Assembly (NCBI GenBank): GCA_029559915.1
Contig: JAKPZU010000203.1
Coordinates: forward strand, 1-48,995
Direction: 5' to 3'
DNA: 48,995 nucleotides
Source: Bacillota bacterium
GTDB lineage: Bacteria > Bacillota_I > Bacilli_A > Izemoplasmatales > Hujiaoplasmataceae
Every line of letters begins with the position of its first letter. Position 1 is the first letter of the stretch. Shown in pieces: positions 5,647 through 40,402 of this stretch. Position numbers and translations under genes: made by a program. The notes under the pieces were generated by a model. The model searched no databases. It saw nothing but the letters and a program-made list of their open reading frames with translations, and was not told the DNA's origin.

Positions 5647-7162
5647 TGATTGATACTCCTGTCATAGCGTGAGGTTGTTCTAGATTAAGTAACTTCAACA
5701 TTGTTGGAGCGATATCGCCGAGACTTCCGTGCTCTCTTAATTTTACTTTTTCATCAGTAACCAAGAAAGGCACTAGATTGGTTGTGTGAGCAGTAAAGAT
5801 TGTACCATCAGTGTCAAGCATCTTTTCGCAGTTACCATGATCGGCTGTGATAAGCGCTATGCCACCAACTTCTTGAATCTTTTTAACCACTCTTCCCACG
5901 CAATCATCAACTGCTTCTACAGCCTTTACAGCTGCCGGAATGACACCTGTGTGTCCTACCATATCACCATTGGCAAAATTTAAAATAACAACGTCGTGAA
6001 TACGAGAATCCAATTCCTTGATAACTGCTTCAGTAATCTCATAAGCACTCATCTCCGGCTTCAAATCATAAGTTGGAACTTTTGGAGAGGGGATTAAGAC
6101 TCTTTTGGCGTTTTTGATTTGTTTGTCCACGCCACCATCAAAGAAGAATGTAACATGAGCGTATTTTTCCGTTTCGGCAATTCTTAATTGATTCAAACCT
6201 TTTTCAGCAATATAATCTCCAAACATATCTGATAAATCATTTAATTCAAAAGCGATTTCTCCAGTTACGGAATCCGCATATTTCATCGTTGAGATGAACA
6301 TGATATTTTTTGGACCACTTTTTGTGTTCAAATCAGGTAAAGCTTTTGGATTAGAATAAGCGGTTGAAATTTGTATCGCTCTATCAGGTCTGAAGTTCAT
6401 GAAGATAATTGAATCATTGTCTTTGATTAATCCATCTTCATTAACAATAAAAGGAATGACAAACTCATCGTTTACTCCAGCCCGGTATGAAGCCAAGACA
6501 CCATCTCTGGCTTTTGTAAAATGTTGACCTAATCCGCAAGTCATCGCATCATAAGCTTTTTGGATACGATCCCAGTTTTTATCTCTATCCATGGCATAAT
6601 AACGTCCAGACACCGTAGCAATCGCGCCATAGTTGATTTCTTTCATGTAGTTTTCCAAATCGTCGATGAACCCAACCGCTGACTGTGGTCCAACATCGCG
6701 CCCATCCAAGAACGCATGGACATAAGTCTTTTCAACCCCCACTTCTTTGGCAGTTTTGAGCATTTCCTTGAAATGCAGGATATGAGAGTGAACACCACCA
6801 TCGGATAATAATCCAAAAAGATGAAGTTTTGAATTATGTTTCATCGTATTTTTAAAAGCTGCCAAATAGGCATTATTGGTTTTAAACATTCTTTCCTTGG
6901 CGGCTTTATTAACTCTAGTCAATGATTGATAGACAACTCTGCCGGCACCGATATTCATATGCCCAACTTCAGAATTGCCCATTTGTCCTTCAGGAAGACC
7001 AACAGCTTCTCCTGAAGCATCTAGGAGTGTATGAGGATATTTGGCAAACAAATTATCCAAATTAGGCTTTTTTGCAAGGCTAAAAGCATTGCCTGGACCG
7101 GCCTCTGCGATACCGATTCCATCCATGATAATCAATACAACTGGCTTTTTCAAAATAATCAC
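5639..7162 (-). CDS. gpmI: 2,3-bisphosphoglycerate-independent phosphoglycerate mutase
   Basis: VVLIIMDGIG, GNSEVGHMNIGAGRVVYQ, TADHGNCE; 507 aa. Confidence 0.97.
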   Translation of the reverse strand: MIILKKPVVLIIMDGIGIAEAGPGNAFSLAKKPNLDNLFAKYPHTLLDASGEAVGLPEGQMGNSEVGHMNIGAGRVVYQSLTRVNKAAKERMFKTNNAYLAAFKNTMKHNSKLHLFGLLSDGGVHSHILHFKEMLKTAKEVGVEKTYVHAFLDGRDVGPQSAVGFIDDLENYMKEINYGAIATVSGRYYAMDRDKNWDRIQKAYDAMTCGLGQHFTKARDGVLASYRAGVNDEFVIPFIVNEDGLIKDNDSIIFMNFRPDRAIQISTAYSNPKALPDLNTKSGPKNIMFISTMKYADSVTGEIAFELNDLSDMFGDYIAEKGLNQLRIAETEKYAHVTFFFDGGVDKQIKNAKRVLIPSPKVPTYDLKPEMSAYEITEAVIKELDSRIHDVVILNFANGDMVGHTGVIPAAVKAVEAVDDCVGRVVKKIQEVGGIALITADHGNCEKMLDTDGTIFTAHTTNLVPFLVTDEKVKLREHGSLGDIAPTMLKLLNLEQPHAMTGVSIIE

Positions 7163-7304
7163 CTCATGATTTTCTAAACCAACGCTATTATACTATAAAT
7201 AGACTATTTTTGAAAGTCAAATGACTGAATTGTAAACACTTACATGTTTTAAAAAATACATTCCAAATGCGGGGATTTTGATATAATTAATATGAGGTGA
7301 TAAA

Positions 7305-9380
7305 ATGCCATTAACAAAAATTGAAAAACTAAGAAATATCTTAACGAGAAAAATCGATCAAGGAAAGATTAATTATACTGTCCCAGATCTCTGGAATGCT
7401 TGGGATTATCGGGGCGAAGAAATGAGAAAACTACCTTCCCAAGAATTATTAGTCAATCCTTATCGTTTTTTTTCTTCTGTCATTGATAAATATATCTTGC
7501 CAAACAAAAAAGAAAAAACCAACTATCTCAATTCACTTTCCCAAATCAAAGACATTAAAATTAAAAAAAGCCAAACTGGTGGTGACTGGGTAAGAAAATC
7601 AGTACTTTATTCAACAATGATCAGAACCAGTTCTGCTTGGGATCATGATCGAAGTTTTTCTTTGGACATTGAAAACTTCGATGGTTTAAAAGAGACTGGC
7701 ACTTTCGTGAAAATGCTGGCAATTTTGCCGTTGATGAGAAAAATGGGTGCTGATACGCTCTATCTTCTTCCACTTTCAAGGTTTTCACTCAAAGATAAGA
7801 AAGGCGAACTGGGTTCACCTTATGGTGTAGCTAATTTCTTTGATTTGGATCCAAATCTTAAGGAAGCAATGACCGGAAATTTAATGACTTTGGAAGAGGA
7901 GTTCCAAACTTTAGTTGAGGCTTGCCATATGCTTGACATCAGAGTTATTATCGATATCATCCCGCGTACTAACGCTGTAGAAAACGATTTAATCAAGGAT
8001 CATCCTGATTGGTTCTATTGGATTAAGGCTGATGAGTCTCACTTGTTCAAAGTGCCTATGGTCAAAACATTAGAAAATACTTTACCTCCGGATGCTAAAT
8101 ATATGGAGGAAGTCTATGCTTGCGAAGACGTTCAAAGACACATCAAGATGTTTCAATTCGATCCAAAAACACAGAATCCAGAATTATTCGAAAAATTAAG
8201 AGTTGAATCTGAAGACTTGATGACCGACATCGAGAAAAAATTCAATTTAAAAATCGCTCCTGCTTTTTCCGATCATATAAATGACGTACAACCACCGTGG
8301 ACTGATGTGACTTTCTTTAGGATGTTCATGGATCATCCTATAGAAACAAAGAAATATTTAAAGAATCCAAACACCCCACCATATATTCTGTTCGACACTA
8401 TCAAAGCTAATCTTTTCCCTGGTGAAAAACCTAATATCGAATTGTGGAACACTTTAAAAAATATCATACCTTCCTATCAGAAGACATATGGTATAGATGG
8501 TGCACGAATTGATATGGGCCATGCATTGCCTAACGAACTATTGGCAATGATAATCGAAGAGGCAAGAAAAATCGATAAAGATTTCGCCTTTATCGCTGAA
8601 GAACTAAACCCCGATAATGCCCTTAAAGCAAAAAAAGCAGGTTATAATATCATTATTGGCAATGGTTTTTGGATGGAACCAAGAATTTGGGAAAAGAAAC
8701 TTCATAAATTCGTTTATGGTGCCAAAGATATCGCCTTACCAATGTTTGCTTGCGCAGAAACACATGACACCGCAAGAATCGCTGGTAGGGATGGTGGCAG
8801 AACCCTAGCGAGAATGACTACAGTCTTGAATATGATGCTGCCAAATTTAGTGCCGTTCATCAATAGCGGTCAAGAAGTATATGAAATTCAACCAATGAAT
8901 ACGGGGATTGACTGCACAAGTGAAGATAAATTTAAATTACCGCCAGACGACTTGTTTTATGGCAAATTAGCCTTGTTTGATAAATATGCACTTCATTATC
9001 TAAATCACAACCGTTGGGAACTAGCCGATCATTTAGACGGTGTCAAGAATATTCGCAACGCCTGGTTGAATGAAATTACAGATTTAAATCAATATGAACC
9101 GATTTACTTCAATGAATTTGACTCTCCTGCTATCGGCGTTTCTTACTTTAACAAATCTAATGGCAAATGTTTATTGGTCGTTGCCAATAGCAATGTCTAT
9201 AGCGATGTTCATTGCAATGCTGATATCCATAAACTCCGTGACAAAGCGAAAAATTACAACAATTTTGGTAAGCTCTTATATTCAACCTATGAGTTTGGTA
9301 GAGATTATCATGATTTTACCCCGGATGGAAAAGTCAATTTCTTTTTAGGTGCAGGTGAAGTTAAAATAATTGAGTTTTAA
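7305..9380 (+). CDS. GH13-family glycosidase/transglycosylase (alpha-amylase or maltosyltransferase-like)
   Basis: GH13 motifs DGARIDMGHALP (nucleophile region), FAFIAEELN (acid/base), AETHDTARIAGRDGG; 691 aa. Confidence 0.8.
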   Translation: MPLTKIEKLRNILTRKIDQGKINYTVPDLWNAWDYRGEEMRKLPSQELLVNPYRFFSSVIDKYILPNKKEKTNYLNSLSQIKDIKIKKSQTGGDWVRKSVLYSTMIRTSSAWDHDRSFSLDIENFDGLKETGTFVKMLAILPLMRKMGADTLYLLPLSRFSLKDKKGELGSPYGVANFFDLDPNLKEAMTGNLMTLEEEFQTLVEACHMLDIRVIIDIIPRTNAVENDLIKDHPDWFYWIKADESHLFKVPMVKTLENTLPPDAKYMEEVYACEDVQRHIKMFQFDPKTQNPELFEKLRVESEDLMTDIEKKFNLKIAPAFSDHINDVQPPWTDVTFFRMFMDHPIETKKYLKNPNTPPYILFDTIKANLFPGEKPNIELWNTLKNIIPSYQKTYGIDGARIDMGHALPNELLAMIIEEARKIDKDFAFIAEELNPDNALKAKKAGYNIIIGNGFWMEPRIWEKKLHKFVYGAKDIALPMFACAETHDTARIAGRDGGRTLARMTTVLNMMLPNLVPFINSGQEVYEIQPMNTGIDCTSEDKFKLPPDDLFYGKLALFDKYALHYLNHNRWELADHLDGVKNIRNAWLNEITDLNQYEPIYFNEFDSPAIGVSYFNKSNGKCLLVVANSNVYSDVHCNADIHKLRDKAKNYNNFGKLLYSTYEFGRDYHDFTPDGKVNFFLGAGEVKIIEF

Positions 9381-9383
9381 GAA

Positions 9384-9413
9384 AAAAAACGAGCGAAATA
9401 AATCGCTCGTTTT
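9384..9413. terminator. Bidirectional terminator between convergent genes
   Basis: ACGAGCGA-AATAAA-TCGCTCGT flanked by A and T tracts. Confidence 0.85.
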
Positions 9414-14935: not shown

Positions 14936-15351
14936 TTGATTTGATCAAGCATTGCCAAAATGTTTGTAGCCCCCTCATAGAATTCCGAAACTTCATTGTC
15001 AGTGACTCTAATGATGGTTGGTGTACCTTTGACGCCAGAATCAGGGTGCAGATCATTAATTGAAAAAACTGTAACAAAATAGATAGTCGTTGATTTCGCG
15101 CGATAAAGTGTATCCAGCAAAATCGGTTTTATTTCATTACAAGCACCACAGTTAGGGCCATAATAATAGATATAATAATCATTATAAGGCATGCTTAATT
15201 GTTCGTCGGTTATTTCAATGAATTGACCACTAAAGTCAGAATAATCCAAATCGAGATATTCGCTTGTCGTCGTTGTTGGAGCGCAAGCAAAAAGCAGAAA
15301 AATTAGGGGTAAGATTAATAAGATATTTATTTTTTTATTCAATTTAATCAC
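14932..15351 (-). CDS. Thioredoxin-like lipoprotein
   Basis: Lipobox-like LLFACAP after signal peptide; YYGPNCGACNEIKP (CxxC) and KGTPTIIRV (cis-Pro-like). Confidence 0.85.
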   Translation of the reverse strand: MIKLNKKINILLILPLIFLLFACAPTTTTSEYLDLDYSDFSGQFIEITDEQLSMPYNDYYIYYYGPNCGACNEIKPILLDTLYRAKSTTIYFVTVFSINDLHPDSGVKGTPTIIRVTDNEVSEFYEGATNILAMLDQIN

Positions 15352-15931
15352 TATCCTTTGCTTTGATTACGGAAGAAATCCGTTTGTAAATGATGATGAC
15401 TATAACGCTGTTCGCTACACCCTTTAGGATGTTGAAAGGAACGTTTACAACGAAGATAAACTTCAATAAATCAGTGAAGCCATAAACTGATAATAAAGCT
15501 TCAAGCGATGTGTCGAAATAAAGTTTGGCATATAGCGGCAATAACACGAAGATATTCAAAATCGCCGCAACAATAACCATAACAAGTGTCCCTACCGCAA
15601 GCCCAATAAAGGCTTGCTTTTTTGTTTTATGCCGATAATAAATTATACTTGCAGGTACGACAAAAGATATTCCCATCAACAAATTAGCCATCTCACCGAC
15701 ATAAGCTGTATCAGAGGCTCCGCCCAAGACTACATCGAGAATAATCTTGATTGTTTCTATGGTGACACCAGCCACAGGTCCAAAGGCAAAAGCCCCAATC
15801 ATTACCGGAACCTCAGAAAAATCTAATTTATAAGGTCCAGCTATTGTGAAGCTTAGTAGCATCAACACAAATGCCATAGCTCCAAAAATACCAATTACCG
15901 ATAACTTTTTAATATTGTTTCTTTTTTTCAT
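15344..15931 (-). CDS. ribU: Riboflavin ECF transporter S component RibU
   Basis: Hydrophobic, LDFSEVPVMIGAFAFGPVAGVTIETIKIILD; downstream of an FMN riboswitch. Confidence 0.9.
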   Translation of the reverse strand: MKKRNNIKKLSVIGIFGAMAFVLMLLSFTIAGPYKLDFSEVPVMIGAFAFGPVAGVTIETIKIILDVVLGGASDTAYVGEMANLLMGISFVVPASIIYYRHKTKKQAFIGLAVGTLVMVIVAAILNIFVLLPLYAKLYFDTSLEALLSVYGFTDLLKFIFVVNVPFNILKGVANSVIVIIIYKRISSVIKAKDSD

Positions 15932-15970: not shown

Positions 15971-16002
15971 ATTCCTCAGGCGATGAAAAAAAAGTATATT
16001 AA

Positions 16003-16106
16003 CTTCTTCCATCCAGACTGTACTGTCGGTAAGGGAGTTTCACCCATTCATGCCAAAAGGCTCGCGGACTATAACCGCCGGTAGGGACTTTCACCCTGCC
16101 CTGAAG
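16003..16106 (-). promoter_or_regulatory. FMN riboswitch (RFN element)
   Basis: Minus strand CTTCAGGGCAGGGTGAAAGTCCCTACCGGCGGTTATAGTCCGCGAG...GGGTGAAACTCCCTTACCGACAGTACAGTCTGGATGGAAGAAG matches the RFN consensus. Confidence 0.97.
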
Positions 16107-16122
16107 TGTTTTTAACAATTTA

Positions 16123-16802: not shown

Positions 16803-16827
16803 AAAAAAGGCTGAAAAATCAACCTTT
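16803..16827 (-). terminator. Rho-independent terminator of the glycogen operon
   Basis: AAGGTTGA-TTTT-TCAGCCTT followed by T-rich sequence. Confidence 0.75.
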
Positions 16828-19233
16828 TGTCACAGAATTAACATGCCAAATTTTTTCAGCATAATCTTGGATGGAGCGGTCTGAAGAAAAAACTCCACTT
16901 TTTGCAATATTAATCAAGGCCTTTTTAGCCCATTGGTGTTTGTCCTTATACGCTTCATTGGCTAAATGTGCAGCGTGTTTATATGCTTGATAATCTTTCA
17001 AAACAAAATAACGGTCATGATAAACCAAATTATCAAAGATATCCTTGAATTCATAGCGATCAACATCTTCAAAGAACCCGTTGACCAATTGATCAAGCAG
17101 GATTCTGATTTCAGAATCTTTTTCATAAAGTGATTTTGGATTGTATTTGCCGCTATTGTAAGCAGCGTTTACTTCTTCGCTTGTCATGCCGAAAACAAAA
17201 ATATTTTCTTTGCCTACCAATTCCTCGATTTCAACATTCGCTCCGTCCAATGTTCCTAGAGTCAAAGCTCCATTCATCATGAATTTCATGTTTCCCGTTC
17301 CGCTCGCTTCCTTGGAAGCGGTGGAAATCTGTTCGGAAATGTCAGCGGCCGGCATGATGATTTCGGCATACGAAACGTTATAATTTTCTACAAAGACAAC
17401 TTTAAGATATTTATTTGTCTCTGGGTCATTATTGACTTTTTTAGCGATGGTATTGATTAATTTTATGATTTTTTTGGCGAAATAGTAAGTTCCGGCTGCT
17501 TTCGCCCCAAAAATAAAAGTATGAGGAACATAGGTTTCCCTGAATTCAGGTTTTGCTTTCAGCGTATTATAAATGCTCATGATATGGAGAGCGTTCATCA
17601 ATTGACGCTTGTATTCATGTAGTCTCTTGACCTGAATATCAAAAATAGAATCAGGATCAATTTCAATATGTTGTTCATGATAGATTTTTTCAGCCAAGGC
17701 TTTTTTCTTCAAATGTTTGACACGTAGGAACTCTTCTTGGAAATCTCTGTCATCCACAAAATTCATTAGTTTTTCCAATTGTTGAGGATTGTGTTTGAAT
17801 CCGTCACCAATTTTTTTGGTGATTAAAGCCGTCAATTCCTTGTTTGAATGCAATAACCAGCGACGATGGGTAATGCCATTGGTTACATTCTGGAATTTTT
17901 CCGGATAAAGGTCGTAAAACTTCTTCATTTCGATATTCTTGAGAATTTCCGTATGAAGTTTGGCTACTCCGTTTACCGAGAAAGAAGCCACGATGCATAG
18001 ATGAGCCATCTTAACGACTCCGTCATTGATTATCGCCAACTCACGTATCAGTTCTTCTTTACCATAGCCATATTTTTCAAGTAAACCCAGCGTGAAACGA
18101 CGATTGATTTCTTCAATCAATTGATAGATTCTTGGCAGTAAAGGCCTCATGATGTCAACTGACCATTTTTCCAGAGCTTCAGCCAAAATTGTGTGATTGG
18201 TATAAGCAATTGTCTTGGTAACAATTTCCCAAGCTTCGTCCCATTCCATCATTTCTTCATCAATCAAGATTCGCATCAACTCAGGAATAATCAGGGTTGC
18301 ATGGGTATCATTGATGTGCAGGACCACATGGTCAGACAAATTATTAAGTTTTCCAAATTTTTCCTTGTGTTCCTCAGTTATGCTTTTTACACCAGCTGCG
18401 GAAAGGAAATATTGTTGTTTAAGGCGCAACTGCTTTCCTTCATATGTGGTGTCGTCCGGATAAAGGAAACCAGAAATTTTTTGTAATTCGTTTTCGTATT
18501 CGAAAGGAGATTTGTTTTCCGGATATTTTTTTGCTGGTTCAGCATTCCAGAGTCTCAAGTAATTCACAATATTATTGCTGTCACCTACAATTGGAACATC
18601 ATATGGAACCGCACGAATGATTTCTTGCGGATGGTAGGCCATTTTCCCGTTTTCCCAGTTTACATAACCAAAGAAGGGGATATCAACAGATTTTTCCTGT
18701 CTTCTTATCTCCCATACATATCCGTCGTTCAGCCAATTATCTGGACGTTCTTCTTGATAGCCGTTCTTGATTTTTTGACGGAATAAACCGTAGCGATAAC
18801 GAAGGCATTGTCCATACCCCAAAATACCTAATGAAGCCATTGAATCCAAATAGCAAGCTGCCAGTCGTCCTAAACCACCGTTGCCTAATCCTGGATCAGC
18901 TTCATAATCTTCTACTTCGTTCAAATCGAAGCCCATCTCATTGAATCCAGCTTCAGTTACTTCTCTGATGCCCATATTCATTAAGTTATTGGTAATCAGT
19001 CTTCCCATGAGGAATTCCATGGAAAAATAATAAACTTTCTTTTCCCCTGCTTCTTTAGCGATTTTTTCAGTGTTTAGCCAATCTTTAGCTATTTCTTCCT
19101 TTACCAAAATGCCAAGAATGTTGTATCTTTCTCTCACTGTCGAGTCAGAGATTTCTTTATAATAAGTCTTCTTTAGTCTTTCTTTAAAGGCTTTTTGAAA
19201 ACTATCTTTAGTTTTAAAAATACCTAATCTCAT
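16819..19233 (-). CDS. glgP: Glycogen/starch phosphorylase
   Basis: EASGTGNMKFMMNGALTLGTLDGANVEI, DPGLGNGGLGRLAACYLDSMA; 804 aa. Confidence 0.97.
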   Translation of the reverse strand: MRLGIFKTKDSFQKAFKERLKKTYYKEISDSTVRERYNILGILVKEEIAKDWLNTEKIAKEAGEKKVYYFSMEFLMGRLITNNLMNMGIREVTEAGFNEMGFDLNEVEDYEADPGLGNGGLGRLAACYLDSMASLGILGYGQCLRYRYGLFRQKIKNGYQEERPDNWLNDGYVWEIRRQEKSVDIPFFGYVNWENGKMAYHPQEIIRAVPYDVPIVGDSNNIVNYLRLWNAEPAKKYPENKSPFEYENELQKISGFLYPDDTTYEGKQLRLKQQYFLSAAGVKSITEEHKEKFGKLNNLSDHVVLHINDTHATLIIPELMRILIDEEMMEWDEAWEIVTKTIAYTNHTILAEALEKWSVDIMRPLLPRIYQLIEEINRRFTLGLLEKYGYGKEELIRELAIINDGVVKMAHLCIVASFSVNGVAKLHTEILKNIEMKKFYDLYPEKFQNVTNGITHRRWLLHSNKELTALITKKIGDGFKHNPQQLEKLMNFVDDRDFQEEFLRVKHLKKKALAEKIYHEQHIEIDPDSIFDIQVKRLHEYKRQLMNALHIMSIYNTLKAKPEFRETYVPHTFIFGAKAAGTYYFAKKIIKLINTIAKKVNNDPETNKYLKVVFVENYNVSYAEIIMPAADISEQISTASKEASGTGNMKFMMNGALTLGTLDGANVEIEELVGKENIFVFGMTSEEVNAAYNSGKYNPKSLYEKDSEIRILLDQLVNGFFEDVDRYEFKDIFDNLVYHDRYFVLKDYQAYKHAAHLANEAYKDKHQWAKKALINIAKSGVFSSDRSIQDYAEKIWHVNSVTKG

Positions 19234-19310: not shown

Positions 19311-21725
19311 TTATATGATTTGATAGAGTTCAAGATATCTTTTTGCCGAGTCTTGCAAAGAAAACCGTGAATTCATGGCATTGATGATTAATTGGCGCCA
19401 ATCATCAGGATTATTGTTATAAACATTGAAGGCATTATTCATTTGAAACAGTAGGTCTCTGGCGTCATAGTTGAAGAATTTGAAGCCATTTCCTCGTTTG
19501 CTTGAAGCATCGAAGTTATCGACTGTATCATTAAGACCGCCGGTCTGTCTTACAATTGGAATCGTGCCATACCTCAGGGCGATCATTTGCCCAATACCGC
19601 AAGGTTCATATCTGGAAGGCATCAAAAAAGCGTCTGCACCAGCGTAAATGTATTGCGGTTTGGTGGCATCGTATTCAAGATTCAAACTTACACGATCAGG
19701 GAAGCGATTTTTTAAGGTTTTCAATTGTTCCAAATAAATTTCATCACCTGTTCCCAATATAACAAATTCAATCTGTGGGTTTTCCAGAAACTGATGCAGT
19801 GCTGGGATAATGATTTCGAAACCTTTTTGCTCGACAATTCTTGAAACCATACCAACAACAAAATAATCTTGACCAACCGAAACGCCAAGTTTCTTCTGCA
19901 TATCTAGTTTATTTACTTTTTTGGCTGTGAAAACATTGACGAGATTGTATTTCATTGCAATTTCCAGATCGTCACGAGGATTTACTTCTTCTGACAAACC
20001 GTTCAAGATTCCGTAGAAATCCCTGAATCTCTTATTGATGATTTCCACTAGATTCTTGGAGTAATATTCATATCGCAGTTCATCTTTATATGTCTCTGAG
20101 ACAGTGGAAATTTTCGTTGCATAAGTTAAACCGATTTCCAAAAAATTGATTTTATTCAGTCTAGTGTACTGCAACGAATCTTCGATGTTTAATTTTGTCA
20201 GAATATCACGGTCATGAATGCCTTGATATTCAATATTGTGAATTGTCATCAAAGTTTTTATTGGAATATTAGAATTTTTCAGTAACAATGGCAATAATCC
20301 AGTGTGCCAGTCATGAAGATGAAGGATATCCGGAAATTCTTCAATTGCATCCAAAAAATGGATTACTGCAAGATTAAAAAAGGCAAAACGATCACCATCA
20401 TCTTCATAACCATATATTTTTTCTCGATCAAAGAAATCATATGATTCAATAAAATAATAGACTGTGTTTGTGTTCACCAATGTGTACAAATTGACTTTAT
20501 AATTCTTGTTGCCATAATTGATGGAATTTGAAACTTTAAGTTCCAATAAGAGATTATATTTTTCTTTTATCTGCGGGTATAACGGTAAAATTACCTGTGA
20601 TTTTTTACCCAAGTTAGAATATTCTTCCGCTAACGAACCAACTACATCAGCCAGTCCGCCAGTTTTGATATATGGGAAACATTCGCTTGAAACTTGCAAG
20701 ATTGCTAGTTTCTGGTGAGTCGTGACGATTTGCTTCTTTTCGGAAACAAAAATCTCATCTTCTTCGCCCGTGACAACCGACCCCTTTAATACTTTTGTCT
20801 CTTTATCGAGAATGGAAAATTCAACTAAAGCATCGCTTTCGACAATCGACTGATTCATAATGATCGAATCCTTGATTTTAGCACCATATGCAACTTTCAC
20901 TTTACGACCGATGATAGAGTTTTCTACTTCGCCTTCAATCATGGCTCCAGAAGCGATTATTGAGTTCTTTACAATTGCGAAATCTCCATATCTCGATGGT
21001 GCCGACATGGTTTCCTTAGAATAAATCGGACGATTTTCCGGAAAAAGTTGGTTTCTTATTTCCGGCAATAATATCCGCATGTTAGCTTCATACAATTCTT
21101 TGGCTGAGGTGATATTATAAGAAAATGTACTGATGACTATAGTATGTTTTTTTATTGCTGGAGCATAATCAAAGACATCAGAAAGATTTCTGAAAGCAAT
21201 CTGGTCATAATTTTCGATATATTCTAGAAGTAGCTTTTTAGATATAATATAAGTCTTTAATACTTTCCTTACATCAGACAAGATTTCCGATATGTCTGCG
21301 TTTTGATTGAGATGTTCCTGCAAAAAATCATAATAATTGATATTCCAGACCATGTTTGCGGGTGTGATGATTGCATATTCTTGATTGCTGCGATAAAAGT
21401 ATTCCAGATGTTCATACATTCTTTGAAAACTTATTTCGTTCTCAATTGTTAACGATAAATTCTTTGGAGGTAAGATAAAGATACCATCATGTCTGCGACT
21501 TAAATCCCAACGATCGCCGCTACCAATATGGTCGGAAAGCGAACGATAATTTCCATAAGGAAAAATCGCGACATTATTAATGCCTGAGTTTTTGCAATTC
21601 GATAGTGTAAAATCGATGAGACGGTATTTACCGCCAAAAGGAATTGCACCCGGAACGCGATGACGAGTAAGTTTTTCAAAGTTTCCTCTTGATGAGGCAT
21701 CAACAACTACAAAGATATCATTCAT
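19311..21725 (-). CDS. Fusion: N-terminal GlgD-like (ADP-glucose pyrophosphorylase-like subunit) + C-terminal GlgA glycogen synthase
   Basis: aa ~1-335 GlgD-like (GAIPFGGKYRLIDFTLSN, DHIGSGDRWDLSRRHDGIFILPPKN, left-handed beta-helix tail); aa ~339-804 GlgA (KLAILQVSSECFPYIKTGGLADVVGSL, PSRYEPCGIGQMIALRYGTIPIVRQTGGLNDTV). Confidence 0.93.
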   Translation of the reverse strand: MNDIFVVVDASSRGNFEKLTRHRVPGAIPFGGKYRLIDFTLSNCKNSGINNVAIFPYGNYRSLSDHIGSGDRWDLSRRHDGIFILPPKNLSLTIENEISFQRMYEHLEYFYRSNQEYAIITPANMVWNINYYDFLQEHLNQNADISEILSDVRKVLKTYIISKKLLLEYIENYDQIAFRNLSDVFDYAPAIKKHTIVISTFSYNITSAKELYEANMRILLPEIRNQLFPENRPIYSKETMSAPSRYGDFAIVKNSIIASGAMIEGEVENSIIGRKVKVAYGAKIKDSIIMNQSIVESDALVEFSILDKETKVLKGSVVTGEEDEIFVSEKKQIVTTHQKLAILQVSSECFPYIKTGGLADVVGSLAEEYSNLGKKSQVILPLYPQIKEKYNLLLELKVSNSINYGNKNYKVNLYTLVNTNTVYYFIESYDFFDREKIYGYEDDGDRFAFFNLAVIHFLDAIEEFPDILHLHDWHTGLLPLLLKNSNIPIKTLMTIHNIEYQGIHDRDILTKLNIEDSLQYTRLNKINFLEIGLTYATKISTVSETYKDELRYEYYSKNLVEIINKRFRDFYGILNGLSEEVNPRDDLEIAMKYNLVNVFTAKKVNKLDMQKKLGVSVGQDYFVVGMVSRIVEQKGFEIIIPALHQFLENPQIEFVILGTGDEIYLEQLKTLKNRFPDRVSLNLEYDATKPQYIYAGADAFLMPSRYEPCGIGQMIALRYGTIPIVRQTGGLNDTVDNFDASSKRGNGFKFFNYDARDLLFQMNNAFNVYNNNPDDWRQLIINAMNSRFSLQDSAKRYLELYQII

Positions 21726-22852
21726 TTTATTTCGCCTACTTCCAGTAGGTTTTCTTGTGTAAGAAGCGTCACTTCTAACCCTTTGAAATAATAGTTGTTT
21801 GGCACAATTACACCTTGATTTATTATAGCTTTTTTTATATAAACATTTTTGCCAATCTTGACGTCAGGCAAAACCACACTGTCTTCAATTATGCTTGAAC
21901 TTTGGACATTGACCCGATAAGCTATGGTGCTATGAATGATATTTCCTTCAATCAAACATCCATCAGCTATAACCGATGATTTTGCTTGTCCACTATTCAA
22001 AATCATATGTGGTGGTAAATTAAGGGATTTAGAAAAAACCGACATCTGTTTCGAAGAATTCAAACCTAAAAAATGCGAATCTTCCAACAAATCCATATTC
22101 GCCTCATAAAGTGATTCAATTGTGCCGACGTCACGCCAATAATCTTCAAATTGATGAATATGAATATTGCGTTCTTTCTTCAAGCAATGGGGGATAATAT
22201 CCTTGCCAAAATCAACCAAATCAGTTTCTGATGAATTGAAAAACAAATCTTCAAGGACGGATAATGAGAAAATATAAATTCCCATTGATGCGAGATTAGA
22301 ACTAGAATTAAGCGGTTTTTCTTGAAAACCGACAACTTTCCCTTTACCATCGCATTCTAGAATGCCAAAGCGTGAGGTTTCTTTATACGGAACTTTAGTC
22401 GCAGCAATTGTCACATCCGCGCTATTCGTTATATGGGTCAAGAGCATCTGGTTGTAATCCATTTTATAGATATGATCACCTGATAGAATCAAAACATATT
22501 CAGGTTGATGGTCCTTGATGAAGCGAAAATACTGTTTGATAGCGTGGGCGGTACCTTTTTGCCATAAGACATCTTCCGCTTGAGAATAAGGAGTTAAAAA
22601 CCTAACTCCGCCATCGATATAGTCGAGATCCCAAGATGCACCGGAACCAATATAATTCATCAGTTCAAAGGGTTCGTATTGCGTAACGATGCCAACTGTT
22701 GAGATGTTACTATTGGAGAGATTGCTCAAAGTAAAATCAATAAGCCGATATTTCGCCCCAAAAGAAACAGCTGGTTTAGCTATCGTTTTGGTAATATCGC
22801 CTAATCTGGTACCTCTGCCGCCAACAAGAATCATGGCTATCATTTTTTTCAT
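21722..22852 (-). CDS. glgC: Glucose-1-phosphate adenylyltransferase
   Basis: MILVGGRGTRLGDITKTIAKPAVSFGAKYRLIDF, QKGTAHAIKQ, GDHIYKMDY, FQEKP; 376 aa. Confidence 0.97.
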   Translation of the reverse strand: MKKMIAMILVGGRGTRLGDITKTIAKPAVSFGAKYRLIDFTLSNLSNSNISTVGIVTQYEPFELMNYIGSGASWDLDYIDGGVRFLTPYSQAEDVLWQKGTAHAIKQYFRFIKDHQPEYVLILSGDHIYKMDYNQMLLTHITNSADVTIAATKVPYKETSRFGILECDGKGKVVGFQEKPLNSSSNLASMGIYIFSLSVLEDLFFNSSETDLVDFGKDIIPHCLKKERNIHIHQFEDYWRDVGTIESLYEANMDLLEDSHFLGLNSSKQMSVFSKSLNLPPHMILNSGQAKSSVIADGCLIEGNIIHSTIAYRVNVQSSSIIEDSVVLPDVKIGKNVYIKKAIINQGVIVPNNYYFKGLEVTLLTQENLLEVGEIK

Positions 22853-22859
22853 ATAAATA

Positions 22860-24716
22860 TCACCGATTCTGATATTTGATTATTGATATAGCAAGTGGTG
22901 AAATGTTGATGGAAATCGATTGTTGGAATCCGTGACTGAAGTTATCACTTGTTTCAAGAATCGCTCCATTATAAATATTGGAACCGCCATAAATTTCTTT
23001 GTCGGAATTAAGAATTTCTTCATATTTACCTTTTTCTGGCACGCCAATTTTGTAGTGAGAATATGGATTAGGAGTCATGTTGATGATAACGACACAAAAA
23101 TCGGTTTTGTCTTTGCCAAACCTTAGGAAAGAAAAGATTGATTGGTCATAATTGCTTTGATCAATCCAGCGGAATCCTTCCGGTTTATGATCAAGTTCAT
23201 AAAGACATGAGTGGTGATTATACACTTTGATCAAATCTCTGACGAAGCGATTGGCAGCGCTATGCATTGGATATTCCAACAAGTGCCAATCTAGTTCTGC
23301 TTTATCCTTCCATTCAAGCATCTGGGCAAATTCGCCGCCCATGAAAAGCAATTTTTTACCTGGATGAGTGAATTGAAGCCCCATAAGTAAGCGATAGTTG
23401 GCAAATTTTTGCCAATAATCGCCTGGCATCTTGTCAACCAAAGATTTTTTGCCATGAACAACTTCATCATGAGAAAGCGGTAAAATGAAATGTTCTGAAT
23501 AAGCATAAACCATGCTGAATGTAATGAGGTCATGATGATATTTGCGGTAAATTGGGTCTTTGGCAAAGTATCTTAAAGTATCATTCATCCAACCCATGTT
23601 CCATTTGTAATCGAAGCCAACACCACCGTCTAAAACACTTTTGGTTAGATTAGGGTAAGTGGTAGAATCTTCTGCGAACATCAAAACGGAATGGTCTTTT
23701 TCTTTAATGGCATAATTGAGGTTCTTCAAAAACTCGATTGCACCATGATTAGTTCCGACATGCATATTTCCAAGATAATAGACGATGTTGGAGACGGCGT
23801 CGATTCTGAAACCGTCAACGTGAAAATAGTCCAGCCAGAAATAAGCATTAGAAATCAAAAAGCTTTTGACGATGCCTTTGCCCAAATCAAGATTAATTGT
23901 ACCCCAGACGACATTTTCCCTAATATTATAATCTACATATTCATATAGTGGCTCCCCGTCAAACATATAGAGACCATGAGCATCTTTGCATGTATGTCCA
24001 GGTACCCAGTCCATGATGACACCAATGCCATGTTCATGGCATTTGTCAATCAAATACATTAAATCTTTAGGAACGCCAAATCTTGAAGTGGCACTATAAT
24101 AACCAGTACCTTGATAACCCCAGCTTTCATCCAAAGGATGTTCCACTATCGGCATGATTTCGATATGGGAAAATCCGTGTTCTAAAACATAAGGTATCAA
24201 TAAATCTACCAGTTCATTGTATTTATTAAAACTGCCATCCGGTTTTGTCATCCAACTGCCTAGATGCACTTCATAAACCGATAATTTTTCTTCCAGATGA
24301 TTTCTATTTTTTCTTTTTTCAAGGTATGATTGATCGTGCCAAACATATCCTTCAATATCATAAACTTTTGAAGATGTTTCCGGCCGATTATCAGAAAAAT
24401 AAGCATATGGATCAGCTTTGAAAATGGTTTGCCCATAGGAAGTCACGATGCAATATTTATATCTTGTCCATTCTCCTAAACCAGGAACATAGAGATGATA
24501 AACGCCAAAGTTATCTTCTTTTTTCATCACATGCGTTCTTGAATCCCAGTTGTTGAAATCACCAACGACTGAGACAATTTTGGCATGAGGTGCGTAGACA
24601 CGAAAATCAACGCCTAATACTTCGTTTTTTTCGTTTTTTACTAGATGTGAACCAAAAATTTTGTAAGCTTCCTTCAATTTACCTTCATTAAAAAGATATA
24701 AATCCAATTCATTCAT
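22860..24716 (-). CDS. glgB: 1,4-alpha-glucan branching enzyme
   Basis: DWVPGHTCKDAHGLYMFDG, DGFRIDAVSNIVYY, FAEDSTTYP, LPLSHDEVVHGKKSLVDKMPGD; 618 aa. Confidence 0.97.
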   Translation of the reverse strand: MNELDLYLFNEGKLKEAYKIFGSHLVKNEKNEVLGVDFRVYAPHAKIVSVVGDFNNWDSRTHVMKKEDNFGVYHLYVPGLGEWTRYKYCIVTSYGQTIFKADPYAYFSDNRPETSSKVYDIEGYVWHDQSYLEKRKNRNHLEEKLSVYEVHLGSWMTKPDGSFNKYNELVDLLIPYVLEHGFSHIEIMPIVEHPLDESWGYQGTGYYSATSRFGVPKDLMYLIDKCHEHGIGVIMDWVPGHTCKDAHGLYMFDGEPLYEYVDYNIRENVVWGTINLDLGKGIVKSFLISNAYFWLDYFHVDGFRIDAVSNIVYYLGNMHVGTNHGAIEFLKNLNYAIKEKDHSVLMFAEDSTTYPNLTKSVLDGGVGFDYKWNMGWMNDTLRYFAKDPIYRKYHHDLITFSMVYAYSEHFILPLSHDEVVHGKKSLVDKMPGDYWQKFANYRLLMGLQFTHPGKKLLFMGGEFAQMLEWKDKAELDWHLLEYPMHSAANRFVRDLIKVYNHHSCLYELDHKPEGFRWIDQSNYDQSIFSFLRFGKDKTDFCVVIINMTPNPYSHYKIGVPEKGKYEEILNSDKEIYGGSNIYNGAILETSDNFSHGFQQSISINISPLAISIIKYQNR

Positions 24717-25512
24717 CGCTCAGTTGGCTCCCTTCAAGGTATTTTTTTATTAAATCGTAACGATAACCTTTAGCAAGTAATTTGGTGATTAAAAACTGAT
24801 TTAATGATTGTTTTTGATCTTTCTTTTGATATTTATCCAACAGGTGAGATGCTTCTTTACTTAACAGATTCAACTCATTGGTTTTCGAAATGGCCTCGGA
24901 TTGAAAATTTCCGATTAATGGTGAGATATCTTCATACTCAAAGCCTTTACCCATGCAAAAATCAATCAAGGATTTTTGAGTTTTATAAAATGGTTTGTTT
25001 TGTAGGGACTTGACTTTTTTTTCAAGCCAAAAATTGATGTTTTCCTGTAACTGGACTTCATTATATATAGTTAATGATTCATTTATCAACTCAATTTTTA
25101 TGCCTTTCAATCTTAATTCTTCACGGATTTTCCTTGGGCCGAACCGCTTGAAAAAAACAGCTTCATGAACGAAATTCTTAGTATATGAATCATCATCGAG
25201 AAGTTTCATTTTTTCCAGTTTAGTCAAATAATAACCGTATTCTTCCACTTGCAGCTTATCGAGATATGCAAATATTTCTTTTTTTGTTCGCGGTTTGAAA
25301 AGGGCGAATTTAAGTACTTTTTGATAATAAGAATCTCTATTGATGGCTTTTTCTATGATTTTGAATTGATTTTCTTCGATAACTTTTCCTTGCAATAAAC
25401 GGTATTCGACAAGCAAGTCTTCTGAGACATTGAACGTTGTTTCTTGATCATTATTTTCGATGGTCAATTGATAGTTTTTTCCTTTTTTGACCAAATTCTT
25501 TACCCTATACAT
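24709..25512 (-). CDS. recX: Regulatory protein RecX
   Basis: KPRTKKEIFAYL, FGPRKIREELRLKGI; 267 aa; ends in TGA overlapping the glgB start. Confidence 0.85.
   Translation of the reverse strand: MYRVKNLVKKGKNYQLTIENNDQETTFNVSEDLLVEYRLLQGKVIEENQFKIIEKAINRDSYYQKVLKFALFKPRTKKEIFAYLDKLQVEEYGYYLTKLEKMKLLDDDSYTKNFVHEAVFFKRFGPRKIREELRLKGIKIELINESLTIYNEVQLQENINFWLEKKVKSLQNKPFYKTQKSLIDFCMGKGFEYEDISPLIGNFQSEAISKTNELNLLSKEASHLLDKYQKKDQKQSLNQFLITKLLAKGYRYDLIKKYLEGSQLSDE

Positions 25513-40328: not shown

Positions 40329-40402
<74 letters not shown>

Follow-up and report, generated by a model that had tools for sequence, protein, structure and literature searches.

The DNA analysed here (the window, 48,995 nucleotides in length) is contig C170 of a 2.49-Mb metagenome-assembled genome (MAG) in 430 contigs, with a contamination of 5.5%. 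Its minus strand carries the tightly packed genes recX, glgB, glgC, glgDA and glgP (Table 1), and the TGA stop codon of glgC overlaps the ATG start codon of glgDA (ATGA). Both the order and the spacing of the compact glgB-glgC-glgDA-glgP operon proposed in a preliminary description of this DNA were borne out by open reading frames and family profiles. Elsewhere in the window an FMN riboswitch (RF00050, 101.9 bits) was detected at 15997-16112 (-), just upstream of an open reading frame (15344-15931) for an ECF-type, riboflavin-transporter-like protein, together with a tmRNA (604-948, -) and a tRNA gene (40332-40402, -).

Table 1. Features of the glycogen operon and of the fused gene, in window coordinates.
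Feature	Position	Strand	Description and basis
recX	24709-25512	-	name is a reading of the protein sequence, not a family search
glgB	22860..24716	-	618-aa branching enzyme; NF003811 824 bits, over cut-off
glgC	21722..22852	-	376-aa ADP-glucose pyrophosphorylase; NF003670 over cut-off; alignment to E. coli 5l6s, residues intact
glgDA	19311..21725	-	804 aa; shortened GlgD pseudo-subunit (aa 1-~334) and GlgA (aa ~340-804); ORF, profile scores, relatives
GlgD half	20724..21725	-	nucleotidyltransferase-like domain without the glucose-1-phosphate segment, then left-handed beta-helix (aa ~250-334); Pfam/NCBIfam, residue table, alignment
Junction linker	20709..20723	-	aa 335-339 (TTHQK); sequence variable, length invariant; 49 fused proteins
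GlgA half	19311..20708	-	GT5 glycogen synthase; TIGR02095 466.5 bits; all catalytic residues kept
glgP	16819..19233	-	804-aa glycogen phosphorylase; TIGR02093 1083 bits
Terminator-like hairpin	16828-16805		at end of glgP

The glgDA reading frame contains no internal stop codon. Its first part scored 257.2 bits against the NCBIfam model for GlgD (TIGR02092; curated cut-off 236.6), and residues 341-802 matched positions 2-475 of the 477 in the GlgA model TIGR02095, well over the curated cut-off of 328.45; the Pfam domain Glyco_transf_5 covers residues 342-564. Models of the GlgC type remained far under their own cut-offs (TIGR02091, 139.4 versus 424.9 bits), which identifies the first half as GlgD-like. 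Because both halves exceed the curated thresholds of their respective families, the original observation of a GlgD-like part fused to a complete GlgA within a single unbroken reading frame is right. Two AlphaFold predictions, each based on five near-identical sequences, reached mean pLDDT values of 37.6 and 39.4, too low for a usable structural model.

Active-site residues were mapped onto E. coli GlgC (PDB 5l6s) for 49 fused proteins and for 47 GlgC proteins encoded in the same operons. Within the GlgD half, the equivalents of G27 and G28 (nucleotide loop), R32, K42, D142 and D276 are replaced, with R32 retained in a single fused protein out of 49. Furthermore, the segment from approximately G179 to K195, the glucose-1-phosphate lysine, is deleted in every fused protein and in both relatives with split genes, a loss of about 30-35 residues compared with stand-alone GlgD. 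K195 and D142 of the E. coli enzyme are established as serving in substrate binding and catalysis. The operon GlgC keeps all tested catalytic and substrate residues (47/47), and the GlgA half keeps the K-x-G-G motif and the equivalents of H161, R300, K305 and E377 (49/49). Judged by its residues, the GlgD half cannot be a canonical pyrophosphorylase; the candidate assignment of an active ADP-glucose pyrophosphorylase was rejected, since neither the nucleotide site nor the glucose-1-phosphate site is intact and the TIGR02091 score is low. While the GlgD half reaches the family score and lacks the catalytic residues, as GlgD proteins do, it does not have the full body of ~370 residues with the sugar-phosphate region. 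Since that segment is deleted, it is best described as a GlgD-derived domain rather than a typical full-length GlgD, and at the level of sequence it is reduced beyond the already inactive stand-alone protein.

The two halves meet at a junction that is conserved in length. No insertion or deletion was observed over residues 236-402, which take in the beta-helix, the junction and the first part of GlgA, in any of the 49 fused proteins. K330 is present in all of these and Q332 in 46, while residues 335-339 are free in sequence and fixed in length. About 46% of all 48-residue windows in the fused protein are likewise free of indels, so the length lock is notable at the linker and not unique within the protein. 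The linker originally proposed, EDEIFVSEKKQIVTTHQ, had to be revised: alignment to the C-terminus of stand-alone GlgD indicated that most of it is the C-terminal strand of the GlgD domain (EDEIFVSEKKQIV is part of GlgD itself), leaving a shorter linker of ~5 residues at approximately 335-339.

The distribution of the fusion was assessed in related genomes. Named near relatives are MAGs of Izemoplasmatales, Tenericutes or Bacillales; the organism is of an Izemoplasmatales type and not Bacillus-like. Among 61 Izemoplasmatales-like genomes (the source genome, its family and its order), 56 contain the fusion, counted as single-frame matches spanning the junction, of which one (G019) has one internal stop and a few are ended by contig ends; in the other five the contigs are broken or the fusion is missing. 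Across the 395 genomes of the class, families f10 (three genomes) and f14 (six genomes) also have the fusion. The remaining families with both proteins encode glgD and glgA as separate neighbouring genes divided by stop codons, which agrees with the earlier statement that Firmicutes normally keep the two genes apart. Two apparently joined matches from Clostridia in a plasmid collection (Subdoligranulum, Acetoanaerobium) were discarded because they are separate glgD and glgA genes.

These data bear on whether the fusion is an assembly or frameshift artefact of the source MAG, a concern raised by the fragmented state of that genome and its level of contamination. However, dozens of related genomes have the same unbroken junction, some of them on a single contig, and it recurs in independent assemblies, one 97% identical (JAQVFZ010000094.1) and three others at 81-85%. 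Neither of the outcomes that would have spoken against the fusion, a broken junction or separate genes in all relatives, was encountered, and an artefact was rejected as extremely improbable. The GlgD-GlgA fusion is a new architecture built from known enzymes; we found no report of it in the open-access papers searched, at the level of abstracts and passages. Public databases probably contain proteins of this kind with no annotation or with only one half annotated.

To place the origin of the fusion, the two halves were concatenated, deletion columns were removed and the tree was rooted on separate genes. All fused proteins formed one clade (support 100/98), and for this reason the fusion probably arose once. 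The sister of this clade is genus g79 of family f14, which encodes a separate, shortened glgD of 341 residues whose TAA stop codon is immediately followed by the in-frame ATG of glgA (L099 5318-7783; L100 4420-6900). This arrangement looks like the state before fusion, with shortening first and joining later, although that order is not certain, given the choice of root, a one-codon difference in marker distance, and the disagreement of the half trees and of the family assignment. The trees of the separate halves disagree on the position of g79: the GlgD half groups it weakly with its own family, and the GlgA half places it among separate genes, whereas in the concatenated tree a grouping with its own family was rejected (p-AU 0.016). 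With the halves in conflict, fission may be an alternative history of g79. A mere stop-to-sense change can be ruled out as the step between g79 and the fusion, as the fusion has 47 residues between two marker motifs, against 48 when the TAA of g79 is read as a residue; either the codon was lost or another change by one codon took place. In the scenario we consider, a shortened glgD abutting glgA would have come first, and loss of the intervening stop would then have joined the two, once.

Such a history invites the explanation that the fusion is neutral, a stop codon having been lost between overlapping or abutting co-translated genes while both halves keep their old, separate roles and draw no benefit from the join. 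The order glgC-glgD-glgA with separate genes is widespread, only one TAA stands between the abutting, in-frame genes of the sister genus, and a single event accounts for everything. Against this, no clear re-splitting was seen in the fused clade across five families, and the junction strictly keeps its length despite a variable linker, while K330 and Q332 hardly change. We regard a neutral fusion as rather unlikely.

The sequences were also compared for signs of selection. Against the 97% identical relative, the GlgD half gave a dN/dS of 0.033 and the covered part of GlgA one of 0.043; pairs at greater distance were saturated. Mean pairwise identity among the fused proteins was 52% for the GlgD half and 50% for GlgA (with 2 of 49 fused rows split at the wrong point in this computation), compared to 40% and 46% among the separate proteins; the two sets differ in taxa, and hence only the ratio of GlgD to GlgA is telling. 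The gain in conservation lies in residues 41-120, which are more conserved in fused than in separate GlgD. These substitution patterns indicate that the GlgD half is not vestigial and that purifying selection acts on it as strongly as on the GlgA half.

A constrained GlgD half might no longer join GlgC and might mainly serve GlgA instead, as a module for oligomerisation, glucan positioning or effector sensing. Loss of the whole sugar-phosphate segment and the fixed-length attachment to GlgA are compatible with such a role, and residues 41-120 could form a new surface facing GlgA or an effector. The gene neighbourhood points the other way. In relatives, glgC lies directly 5′ of the fusion on every contig that extends far enough, mostly overlapping it, and the order glgB-glgC-glgDA-glgP is held in families f1, f2, f3, f10 and f14. 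Moreover, three genomes (G039, G048 and G353) lack the fusion and the operon-type glgC jointly, with at most a second locus left. On balance we regard a module mainly serving GlgA as rather unlikely. In one further genome of 1.0 Mb (G314; L128, C8:4000-12648), glgC and the fusion contain several stops and frameshifts while glgB is nearly intact, reflecting either joint decay or sequencing indels; in view of the latter, this genome was left out of the evidence.

Taken together, these results favour a model, to which we give a probability of about 0.5, in which a dead, shortened GlgD pseudo-subunit docks GlgA onto GlgC. Modulation of GlgC by stand-alone GlgD, an inactive protein that assembles with it into GlgC/GlgD tetramers, is known (PMC9093745). 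The fused GlgD half would likewise join a GlgC/GlgD hetero-tetramer and tune GlgC, and each tetramer would carry a glycogen synthase in a fixed geometry, because GlgA is attached via a short junction of fixed length. ADP-glucose may thus be made and spent on glucan elongation within one complex, at a stoichiometry set by the single polypeptide and by translational overlap with glgC. We infer assembly with GlgC, modulation of GlgC and, should it occur, hand-over of ADP-glucose alike. Of the earlier interpretation, the domain composition, the operon and the contrast with separate genes stood; the coupling function is inferred now as it was then, and is better supported by a dead GlgD half under purifying selection, an intact GlgC that is adjacent and co-absent, and a junction of fixed length.

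Several observations weigh against docking. An unfused pair of adjacent genes, glgC (412 aa, 6686-7924) and glgA (485 aa, 7943-9400), lies on the minus strand of another contig (C329) of the same genome, and most genomes of the order have a second locus of this kind, with a longer glgC. Two glycogen systems therefore coexist, and the cell need not rely on the fusion alone to make glycogen. In addition, a fusion of co-translated neighbours can become fixed without functional coupling, and the trees of the two halves disagree on the position of the sister genus.

A stronger form of the docking model, which we consider speculative and on present evidence unlikely, is a length-locked complex for supply and elongation, in which GlgC tetramers bear the synthase via the dead GlgD adaptor and ADP-glucose is passed directly to the glucan. 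If this were true, the separate GlgD of other Bacillota would also recruit GlgA, a role that to our knowledge has not been assigned to it before. Knowledge of GlgD in the many Bacillota with this protein is partial: it has no activity, and species differ in how it affects GlgC. That GlgD was joined once to the synthase in one lineage, stripped of its substrate site and still selected hints at GlgD as a link between pyrophosphorylase and synthase, and glgDA offers a single protein in which such a link could be tested.

Stand-alone GlgD (TIGR02092), as found in Bacillota such as Geobacillus, Streptococcus mutans and Ruminococcus albus, is likewise a paralogue of GlgC without catalytic function, and its gene directly follows glgC; the fused GlgD half differs in being shorter and covalently joined to GlgA. 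Similarly, the fused GlgA has the complete catalytic domain of the GT5 enzymes (TIGR02095) with all tested residues, but it has no free N-terminus and starts ~5 residues past the beta-helix domain of GlgD. The nearest case comes from Waddlia and its relatives (Waddliaceae/Criblamydiaceae), whose GlgA-GlgB fusion was called exceptional and is also a natural covalent join of two glycogen-operon proteins including GlgA (PMC7935935). Its partner and order are different, its branching domain has no activity and a deletion has removed glgC (PMC7935935), whereas an intact glgC adjoins glgDA. TreS-Mak and MalQ-GlgB are further fusions of alpha-glucan enzymes; both parts of TreS-Mak are catalytic (PMC11046441), while one half of glgDA is a pseudoenzyme.
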